Of a stretch of 64,000 bases of DNA, positions 55,750 through 57,907 are shown in pieces. Position 1 is the first letter of the stretch; each line of letters begins with the position of its first letter. The translations under genes were made by a program, and so were the position numbers. Origin of the DNA: Gammaproteobacteria bacterium (GTDB taxonomy: Bacteria > Pseudomonadota > Gammaproteobacteria > SZUA-152); the NCBI GenBank assembly GCA_032250735.1, contig JAVVEP010000001.1, positions 62,001-126,000 of the forward strand, in the 5' to 3' direction. The notes beneath the pieces were generated by a model. The model did not search any database. It was given only the letters and a program-made list of their open reading frames with translations, and was not told the DNA's origin.

Positions 55750-56940
55750 TTAGTGGCTGGAAAGAAACTGGCAGATGAGCGGAGTGAGCTGGTCAACCAG
55801 CTGCTGCGCCTGCTCATCGGTCATCACCAGAGGCGGCAGCAGGCGCACGACATTATTCGCCGTGACATTGATCAGCAGGCCTTGCGCCAGCGCCAGGGAC
55901 ACCAGCGCCGCACAGGGGCGATCCAGCTCGATGCCCAGCATCAGGCCCCGGCCACGTACGGCGGTGACACCGGCCACCCCGGCGAGCCGTTCGCTAAACC
56001 GGTCCAGCAGTTGCTGGCCGAGTGCCGCGGCGTGGGCACACAGCTGGCCCTTTTCGAGGGTCTCGATCACGCTCAGGCCGACCCGGCAGACCAGGGGATT
56101 GCCACCATAGGTGGAGCCGTGCTGGCCGGGCTGAAAAATCTGTGCCGCCTCCCCCCGCGCCAGGCAGGCGCCGATGGGGACGCCATTGCCCAGCGCCTTG
56201 GCCAGGGTCATCACATCGGGCACGGCATTGCCCTGCAGGGCAACGTGCTGGTGGGCGAACCAGTGACCGGTACGGCCCATGCCCGTCTGGATCTCATCCA
56301 GCATCATCAGCCAGTGGTGCTCGTCACACAGGGCGCGGATACCGGGCAGGTAGTCGTCATCCGGAATCCGGATACCGCCTTCGCCCTGTATCGGTTCCAC
56401 CAGCACGGCCACCACGTTCTGGTTGTTCTTGGCAACCGCGGCGATGGCATCGAGGTCGTTATACGGCACCCGCAGGAAGCCACTGACCAGCGGTTCAAAA
56501 CCGGCCTGTACCTTGCGGTTGCCGGTGGCGCTCAGGGTGGCCAGGGTGCGGCCGTGAAAACTGCCCTCCATCACCACAATCGTGGGCTGCGTGATGTCCC
56601 GCTGGTGGCCATACAGCCGGGCGAGCTTGATGGCGGCCTCGTTGGCCTCGGCACCGGAGTTGCTGAAAAAGGCGCGCTCCATGCCGGCCAGCGCGGTGAG
56701 TCTTTCGGCCAGCGCCTGCTGCTGGGCAATGTGGTAGATGTTGGAGGTGTGTACCAGCTGCGACGCCTGCTGGCAAAGGGCCTCGGTGATCGCCGGGTGG
56801 GCATGTCCCAGGCCGCACACGGCGATACCGCTGAGGGCGTCCAGATAGCGTTTGCCCTCGGTATCCCACAGCCAGACGCCCTCACCCTTTTCAAAGGTCA
56901 CGGGGAGGGGTGCATAGTTTTTCATGAGTGCATCTGACAT
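55750..56940 (-). CDS. argD: Acetylornithine aminotransferase
   Basis: A 396-aa class III aminotransferase using PLP. The phosphate-binding region is FFSNSGAEANEAAIKLAR, the Asp in the LMMLDEIQTGMGRTGHWFA strand pairs with the pyridine, and the catalytic Lys is in TLAKALGNGVPIGA. It converts N-acetylglutamate semialdehyde to acetylornithine. The frame opens at 57060, but that extension is not conserved; the Met at 56940 is chosen, with MKN five residues later as an alternative. Confidence 0.96.
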   Translation of the reverse strand: MSDALMKNYAPLPVTFEKGEGVWLWDTEGKRYLDALSGIAVCGLGHAHPAITEALCQQASQLVHTSNIYHIAQQQALAERLTALAGMERAFFSNSGAEANEAAIKLARLYGHQRDITQPTIVVMEGSFHGRTLATLSATGNRKVQAGFEPLVSGFLRVPYNDLDAIAAVAKNNQNVVAVLVEPIQGEGGIRIPDDDYLPGIRALCDEHHWLMMLDEIQTGMGRTGHWFAHQHVALQGNAVPDVMTLAKALGNGVPIGACLARGEAAQIFQPGQHGSTYGGNPLVCRVGLSVIETLEKGQLCAHAAALGQQLLDRFSERLAGVAGVTAVRGRGLMLGIELDRPCAALVSLALAQGLLINVTANNVVRLLPPLVMTDEQAQQLVDQLTPLICQFLSSH

Positions 56941-56997
56941 GTGGCATCGTCCAGGTAGATTTAACGGCCAGAATAACCGTCTGACTAAATAACCCGA

Positions 56998-57030
56998 AAA
57001 TAAAAAGGCAGTCCCCAATAGAGACTGCCG
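56998..57030 (-). terminator. Minus-strand intrinsic terminator upstream of argD
   Basis: On the minus strand GGCAGTC ... GACTGCC is followed by TTTTTA. It lies after the foldback element and shields argD from upstream transcription. Confidence 0.75.
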
Positions 57031-57077
57031 TTCAGTATCGGGACAAAATTCTATCCACAATCAGCGGGGGAGGCAAC

Positions 57078-57351
57078 ACTAGTACCCTGTAACACGCATA
57101 ATGACGCATTCAGAGCCCCCGAGCGGCGTTAGGGCAAGGCGCAGCGCGCAGGCAAGGGCCCATTCCCTTGTCAAGCGCTGCAACGCCGCACTGGCGTCGC
57201 TCGGGGGCTCCCTTCGGGCGAGGCGATAAGCGGTCACCTGCAGCGTTACTTGCCCTTGAGGTAGAATGGCTACCCCGGCGGGCAAGTGCCTTGCATCTGA
57301 CCGCTTCTCGCCTCGCTGAAGGTGTCATTATGCGTGTTACAGGGTACTAGT
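57078..57351. mobile_element. 274-bp foldback element with perfect 28-bp terminal inverted repeats
   Basis: The ends (57078-57105 and 57324-57351) are exact reverse complements; each begins ACTAGTACCCTGTAACACGC. Inside, two hairpins occur: 57113-57210 (outer stem GAGCCCCCGAGCG / CGCTCGGGGGCTC) and 57212-57321 (CTTCGGGCGAGGCG with matching CGCCTCGCTGAAG; inner ACTTGCCC/GGGCAAGT). The element should fold as a three-way junction. CTAG on both sides could be a target duplication. It encodes no transposase, so it resembles a MITE. Confidence 0.85.
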
Positions 57352-57362
57352 GGCCGGGCCAT

Positions 57363-57387
57363 AAAAAAGGCCCGGTTTCCCGGGCCT
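57363..57387. terminator. Terminator after the PuuD-like gene
   Basis: AGGCCCGGGAAACCGGGCCT on the minus strand, followed by TTTTTT. It lies between the gene ending at 57419 and the foldback element. Confidence 0.88.
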
Positions 57388-57418: not shown

Positions 57419-57907
57419 TTACATCACGCCGTGTGATTGTGCGGCCATAAAGAACAGCATCGGCACGGACAGCAGGGTGTTGGTGCGGGAGGCCAGAAAG
57501 GCGGTGCGTTTGGCCTTGGCGATCTCGTCGGCGCTGGCCTCGACCATGCCCAGAATCCTTTTCTGATTGGGCCAGATGATACCCCAGACGTTCAACAGCA
57601 TGATGGTGCCCAGCCAGGCGCCGATACCGATGTTGACGAAACCACTCTGCAGGGTGAAGGCGGAGACGAGATTGGGGCCTAACAGGCCGGCGCCGGCAAG
57701 CCAGGTGACCAGGGCTGACCAGCGGAACCACAGCAGGGCGCGGGGGGCGATATATTTGCCGATGGCGGCAGGGCCGGGGCCGTCTTTATCGGCCAGGGCG
57801 GCGCCCATGGCGGGGACTTGCACGAAGTTGAAATAATACAACAGGCCAATCCAGGTGATACCTGCCATGAAGTGAATCCAGCGTTCAACAAATTGTACGT
57901 ATTCCAT
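57419..57907 (-). CDS. PuuD/urate-hydroxylase-like membrane protein
   Basis: A 162-aa protein with four membrane helices (VERWIHFMAGITWIGLLYYFNFVQVPAM; ALLWFRWSALVTWLAGAGLL; IGAWLGTIMLLNVWGIIWPNQ; last helix LSVPMLFFMAAQS). It matches the membrane half of PuuD-type urate hydroxylase (COG3748), but the cytochrome domain of PuuD is absent. A His in IHFMAGITW could bind haem. In other sulfur oxidisers such stand-alone proteins have no known role. Confidence 0.8.
   Translation of the reverse strand: MEYVQFVERWIHFMAGITWIGLLYYFNFVQVPAMGAALADKDGPGPAAIGKYIAPRALLWFRWSALVTWLAGAGLLGPNLVSAFTLQSGFVNIGIGAWLGTIMLLNVWGIIWPNQKRILGMVEASADEIAKAKRTAFLASRTNTLLSVPMLFFMAAQSHGVM

Follow-up and report, generated by a model that had tools for sequence, protein, structure and literature searches.

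The window, by which we mean the whole 64,000-nucleotide stretch of DNA analysed here, carries a gene for a class-III aminotransferase, argD-like by name inference, which adjoins an ornithine carbamoyltransferase gene (PF02729/PF00185) and has a short element with inverted ends just upstream of its promoter (Table 1). The TA on the left of the element lies three bases upstream of the -35 hexamer of that promoter. The argD leader (57007-57076), in which a terminator-like stem-loop lies between the promoter and the start codon, has similar sequence in relatives and looks, from its letters, like an attenuator. The first-pass annotation had placed the element between two terminators; the one on the argD side was found by the terminator scan (57029-57007, minus strand), and the second, seen by eye and missing from the scan output, reads GGCCCGG-GAAA-CCGGGCC-TTTTTT along the minus strand at about 57369-57387. 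In a related genome (G001), both neighbour genes are on one contig, and the orthologous intergenic region retains the promoter and both terminator-like sequences and has no element.

Table 1. Features at the argD-like locus (window coordinates).
Feature	Position	Strand	Basis or remark
Class-III aminotransferase gene, argD-like by name inference	55750..56940	-	PF00202; scanned as 55750-56943
Terminator-like stem-loop between promoter and argD	57007..57029	-	Terminator scan; attenuator-like
Promoter-like TTGCCT-17-TAGAAT upstream of argD	57048..57076	-	Same hexamers and spacing readable in the element-free locus of G001
Left target-duplication TA	57080..57081	.	Within CTAG 57079-57082; TA assigned via relatives with unequal flanks
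Element, 266 bp	57082..57347	+	Ends GTACCCTG...CAGGGTAC
Left terminal inverted repeat	57082..57113	+	24 bp perfect (57082-57105), two mismatches by 57113
Hairpin A	57113..57210	+	Conserved motif in forward sense on + strand
Linker CCCTTCGGGC joining the hairpins	57210..57219	+	CCCTYCGGG invariant in 23 aligned elements
Hairpin B	57218..57316	-	Diverged copy of the hairpin A motif, forward sense on - strand
Right terminal inverted repeat	57316..57347	-	
Right target-duplication TA	57348..57349	.	Within CTAG 57347-57350
Gene for a 162-aa protein, other side of the element	57419..57907	-	Partial Urate_ox_N match, PF06181

The inverted-repeat scan gave an outer repeat of 37 nt with 95% identity (57077-57113/57316-57352) and, nested inside it as first described, two inner repeats (57113-57135/57188-57210 and 57218-57242/57292-57316). 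The ends of the element are 32-bp inverted repeats with two mismatches, the outer 24 bp (GTACCC...ATGAC) being perfect. The exact 28-bp ends reported earlier are a true 28-nt match that takes in the CTAG site and a flanking letter, so that 24 bp of perfect repeat lie inside the element; the CTAG on both borders is seen directly in the sequence. One motif, GCAAGGCGC-nnnn-CGCAGG-(stem-loop)-CAAG-nnnn-GCAACGCCGC, is common to hairpin A and to hairpin B read as its reverse complement. A covariance model of the hairpin, R1, matches A at 57115-57207 (E 2.5e-19) and B at 57313-57222 (E 4.8e-18), both of them training sequences of the model. With terminal inverted repeats, a length below 300 bp, no transposase gene and no open frame of at least 80 aa inside it in the list of open reading frames, the element has the makeup of a MITE, and the MITE-like character proposed from the first is borne out by its numerous related copies, most of which lie at CTAG or YTAR sites, and by insertion sequences with ends of a similar kind.

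Folded as RNA, the 274 bases from the first-pass annotation are predicted to form a three-way junction at -200.6 kcal/mol (z -16). The mean of 200 dinucleotide shuffles was -109.7 (sd 5.6) and none was as low as the element, a stability far beyond chance expectation that upholds the earlier claim of strong structure; the wording that almost every base is in a stem was somewhat strong, 42 of the 274 bases being unpaired in a fold that is otherwise mostly paired. The junction is also supported by covariation. An alignment of 23 elements gave a consensus structure of 87 pairs, in which 94.6% of alignment cells are paired (67.6% in shuffles) and 72 pairs have double changes (54.9 in shuffles). The covariation score is 0.708, compared to 0.209 when shuffled and 0.11-0.15 with partners slid, a comparison that favours the real over the slid versions since the structure was predicted from the same alignment, and that counts related sequences repeatedly. 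Invariant letters are concentrated in the motif, bulges included, and in the linker, and most stem letters are variable, so the family appears under this consensus to keep its three-armed fold although most letters have changed. In helix 1, formed by the outer ends, all 23 of 23 pairs have double changes. In long palindromes generally, double changes may also arise by arm-to-arm copying in DNA. No Rfam 15 family matched above its gathering score, all matches at or beside the element and at 18 related loci staying below threshold.

In the outer stems, with the motif excluded and read in the forward-motif sense, we counted 133 G-T and 23 A-C pairs in 61 A and 66 B hairpins of 70 elements (70:12 in A, 63:11 in B). 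These elements were chosen without the covariance model, but from loci fetched by BLAST, pattern and model searches. Clustering at 70% identity left 46 elements with 98:16 (56 vs 5 by hairpin), and the bias is strongest close to the motif, with 70:0 within 10 bp and a weak 28:16 farther out; the T stands on the 5' arm in 76 of the 98 G-T pairs, whole stem considered. With the motif included, whole hairpins give 111:87 and 106:100 and the bias is not significant, and the transposon ends, at 50:52, have no wobble bias. Because G-T is tolerated near the motif but A-C is not, the motif-proximal stem looks like a strand folded alone, the top strand for hairpin A and the opposite strand for hairpin B, while the distal stems and the ends look like DNA palindromes. 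The bias is compatible with RNA and single-stranded DNA alike and does not tell them apart, and a fixed, recognised T-G pair could be part of its cause.

The complete element is single-copy in its own genome. Its end, allowing at most two mismatches, was found in 1 of 186 genomes, which is its own, and no contig of the genome and viral collections, which perhaps do not include the source genome, has the exact 18-nt end. Parts of the element are more widespread: positions 57-113 turn up again within the own genome and its genus, and a neighbouring genus has positions 54-238. Whole copies elsewhere share the plan of inverted ends, two hairpins, a CCCTYCGGG-like linker and a three-way junction, and some family members are shorter and keep a single hairpin. 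The suggestion that perfect ends mean recent movement is not borne out by this, given that the exact ends are single-copy; the proposed search for copies in related genomes did yield many relatives, recognised by the core. Taken literally, no other genome has the same ends (0 exact matches, the 1 of 186 being the own genome), an outcome that the first-pass annotation had held to count against it, but such a test looks at the wrong part, since it is the core and the fold, rather than the ends, that mark a member of the family.

Within the own genome, 26 hairpin matches are spread over 19 loci. Of these loci, 18 are bounded by inverted arms of several kinds with 17-20 of 20 letters matching, and 13 of the 18 are flanked by TA at either end (the nineteenth, L274, was read at a wrong offset). 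R1 matches 126 of 369 gammaproteobacterial genomes, about a third, and 98 of 271 genera, numbers that are a floor given strict filters and the few candidates scored per genome. The motif pattern was found in at least 118 stretches of named genomes and in no viral contig; the genera among the matches listed include Stutzerimonas, Pseudomonas, Marinobacter, Alcanivorax, Gilvimarinus, Microbulbifer, Sedimenticola and Thiohalomonas, together with single records labelled Rhodocyclales, Zetaproteobacteria and Bifidobacterium that are metagenome bins with perhaps wrong labels. Full-length BLAST of the element returned nothing from phages and partial matches only from 12 plasmid records, one of them from Azotobacter. 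On a Comamonas plasmid (L109 2482-2572), a lone motif hairpin lies just past the 3' end of an annotated ruvA, and no inverted ends were found around it.

In 91 loci (a set without the loci before L108, L110, L111, L113, some twenty of L141-L218, and L220-L257), R1 made 161 matches, and we examined 90 of these, each the better hairpin of a pair or a single one. By a loose test 75 of the 90 lie between inverted ends, not all independently (L139 and L196 have the same ends), and 63 of the 75 span 250-290 bp. Random anchors passed the same loose test in 44 of 300 cases and a stricter one, by which the 90 hairpins were not scored, in 5 of 300. Open frames of at least 450 nt span 49 of 64 insertion points compared to 97% of 3540 random points, which is only suggestive of gene avoidance in GC-rich DNA with its long chance frames. 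Some members deviate from the common plan: in the pseudomonad members L263, L266 and L108, a second hairpin type (AAGTTTGG...CCAAA) replaces one motif hairpin, and a separate repeat, AGCGCCTACTG..., lies inside or beside L014, L020 and L065, with a second part, GGGCRCCTRCTTTTGG, in two of them.

The ends that surround this core fall into several classes (GTACTCC..., GTGTAGTGTCC..., GGGTCTGTTGACG..., GGAAGCACTGATCGATTC and others), and in pseudomonads the GGGTCTGTTGACG... ends reach 50 forward and 44 reverse occurrences in one genome. TA stands outside the arms in 54 of 70 non-redundant elements, 11 of which were set aside with the TA taken as internal (GTAC). The inferred sites of the other 43 are CTAG (25), CTAA (7), TTAA (5), TTAG (3), CTAT (1), TTAC (1) and GTAA (1), so that 40 of 43 are YTAR. 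Among ten other dinucleotides used as a control on the 70 elements, AT (22), CG (23) and GC (33) also scored and the seven that are not self-complementary gave 0-2. Because self-complementary letters in perfect arms pass the test by themselves, the case for TA is made by its position and by sites whose outer letters differ, as in copies with CTA on the left and TAA or TAC on the right, or TTA on the left and TAG on the right; copies in the own genome have the unequal-letter sites CTAC and TTAG. Since CTAA, TTAG and the unequal flanks misfit a four-base duplication, the duplicated letters are, across the family, most plausibly TA, set within a favoured YTAR/CTAG site. The CTAG duplication expected at first is thus right about the site, most relatives being at CTAG or YTAR, and seemingly wrong about the duplicated letters. 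For the window copy alone, CTAG is palindromic and a TA and a CTAG duplication are indistinguishable; its flanks are consistent with TA.

Ends also seem to be exchanged. The core of L013 is 79-85% identical to those of six members with GTACTC or GTGGTC ends, while its end is 41-55% identical to theirs and starts GTACATCG, as in the insertion sequence at L093; from sequence comparison this looks like one clear case of end replacement on a conserved core, and the variety of ends on one plan suggests more such exchanges. Tandem members at L260 share one TA. A 54-bp mini-element at L261 (240-330) consists of two GGGTCTG ends alone, with no hairpins, and closely spaced pairs of opposite GGGTCTG-type ends recur in several pseudomonad genomes.

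No insertion sequence with the exact ends of the element was found in the own genome, in 186 genomes or in the genome and viral collections, and the own genome has no DDE_3 match. The search for such a partner, as first proposed, did however turn up IS630-family elements with ends of the same kind. One of these is a 1495-bp DDE_3 element (L298) with ends GTACCGCTGCACAGGAGTTATGAC, which match each other in 22 of 24 letters and have 15 of 24 letters (GTACC...ATGAC kind, counted by eye) in common with the window element; L299 and L302 are DDE_3 elements with similar but less perfect ends. In a related genome, a DDE_3 (IS630-family) element of 1246 bp (L093) lies in CTAG with perfect ends TA|GTACATCGACCAGTTTATATTGAC. 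Its transposase is split across two reading frames, like that of IS630 elements that use frameshifting. L095, a DDE_3 element that seems to be truncated, has one end, TA|GTGTAGTGTCC, that equals a MITE end class. The hairpin was seen at 0 of 39 DDE_3 loci, and no such insertion sequence was therefore observed to include the core. Five of seven pseudomonad genomes with GGGTCTG-ended members have no DDE_3 match, which, like the lack of one in the own genome, speaks against the IS630 link. The stretches analysed yielded no insertion sequence with GGGTCTG ends, the DDE_3 fragment locus L303 having just nine letters, TAGGGTCTG, before other sequence follows. An early degenerate end pattern, poorly designed, matched in 2 of 24 genomes.

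Two Azotobacter plasmids (L338 1501-2903; L108 around 2716) have IS630 sequence abutting a family member at CTAG, annotated in one of the records. The annotated transposase gene starts about 45 bp from the member, and the apparent imperfect ends of the insertion sequence (14 of 20 letters) begin at the CTAG of the member, as if the IS630 sequence had used the border of the member as a target.

We consider it probable, at roughly three in four, that the element is a non-autonomous MITE with ends of the IS630/Tc1-mariner type, moved in trans, around a conserved two-hairpin core common to many end types. A transposase made elsewhere, probably of the IS630 kind to judge by the ends, would bind the inverted ends and move the element by cut-and-paste into TA, preferably within CTAG or YTAR, and the copy in the window would have landed just upstream of the argD promoter. 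The core is two inverted copies of one conserved imperfect hairpin, closing a three-way junction with the ends, and the same two-hairpin chassis is found across the Gammaproteobacteria combined with many different ends. We infer that what preserves the core is a role in single-stranded, folded form, in the simplest case as RNA of read-through transcripts, in which the first hairpin met from either side would read forward. A bolder version, to which we lean less than halfway, makes the chassis itself a selfish unit that works as one folded strand of RNA or DNA, whichever way it is read, and that has repeatedly acquired the ends of different transposases.

A passive core would be a rival account of the same MITE: an ordinary IS630-type element whose stems are kept complementary by replication slippage or arm-to-arm copying, with no selection on the structure. 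The outer ends, which need no RNA function, do covary and do lack a wobble bias, and the bias fades in the distal stems. Yet in a set of 46 hairpins from one bacterial family the letters that vary least, AA, AAC and CAAG, sit in the imperfect features that such copying would be expected to erase, the model built on these features matches in 98 genera, and G-T pairs alone are found next to the motif, which makes an unselected structure rather unlikely in our view.

The remaining accounts are far less probable. REPINs and REP doublets are tied to RAYT genes, and a Y1 (RAYT) transposase that moves or processes a REP/BIME-like element, recognising its hairpins as single-stranded DNA, would accommodate the imperfect hairpins, the strand preference and the inverted pairs; the AAGGCG...CGCCGCA of the motif also resembles the E. 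coli REP, and 23 of 24 genomes of the bacterial family have Y1 transposase genes. However, the hairpin was found at none of the 28 Y1 loci tested of 30 fetched (L327 and L328 were left out, and many more Y1 matches are listed), and long inverted ends with a TA duplication are not known as REP features, so we reject this as very improbable. Conserved structure with little sequence conservation, bulged bases and strand preference would likewise suit a single-strand recombination site of the integron attC kind. Sites of that kind have the boxes GTTRRRY and RYYYAAC in the proper sense, which, judged by eye, the element does not have; with its inverted ends and TA sites counting further against it, this candidate was rejected as more improbable still. 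A resident, immobile cis-acting RNA of the argD region, be it terminator, attenuator or riboswitch, might be expected next to the argD promoter and its attenuator-like terminator, but the G001 locus has the promoter and terminators and no element, and relatives lie at many other loci; it too was rejected and is the least probable of all.

Bacterial MITEs are commonly viewed as remnants of insertion sequences with a middle of little importance. In the hairpin family, it is the middle that is conserved, in 98 of the 271 sampled genera, while the ends vary. If the chassis is indeed selfish, it would ride on whatever transposase is present, much as SINEs ride on the machinery of LINEs in eukaryotes. 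Either way, the family offers a testable, covariation-supported structure and a large set of structured, apparently mobile repeats with no above-threshold Rfam match.

MITEs as a kind are already known; what appears to be new is an IS630-type MITE family with a conserved three-way-junction chassis. We found no published description of the hairpin family in the open-access literature, the scope of the search being set without ISfinder and subscription papers, and it is not described in the portions at hand of PMC3189936, PMC4853749, PMC10969869, PMC2718517 and PMC2229807. REPINs and REP doublets resemble the element in their inverted pairs of imperfect hairpins (PMC3116915) and differ in their RAYT-type link, of which no sign was found here (the hairpin lies at 0 of 28 Y1 loci). 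MITEPsy1 of Pseudomonas syringae is a small MITE that was shown to move and that inserts at CTAG or YTAA, but it is 100 bp long, with IS5-family-like ends and a four-base duplication, according to the part of PMC3189936 consulted. The Correia or NEMIS elements, described from Neisseria, are MITEs with TA at their 24-bp ends, of 107 or 155 bp, whose transcripts are proposed to be cleaved by RNase III; unlike for the element, arms or a linker are not reported there, and in the sections of the review at hand bacterial repeats other than CIR have neither arms nor linker and form only a stem-loop by pairing of their ends (PMC2229807). CIR of Caulobacter and Brucella, about 110 bp with a GANTC motif at a loop, is described in the same sections as having two long inverted repeats that give two arms and a linker as here, but it has no terminal inverted repeats (PMC2229807), whereas the third stem of the element is made by its transposon ends; having inverted ends, the element is not a member of CIR. 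RUP of Streptococcus pneumoniae is like the element gene-free with inverted ends at TA, and the IS630-Spn1 transposase is its proposed mover, the differences being its size, 107 bp with 9-bp ends compared to 266 bp with 32-bp ends, and, as for all such repeats other than CIR in that review, its lack of arms and linker (PMC2229807, as far as those sections go). Among the systems covered there, RUP is thus the nearest in mechanism and CIR the nearest in shape.
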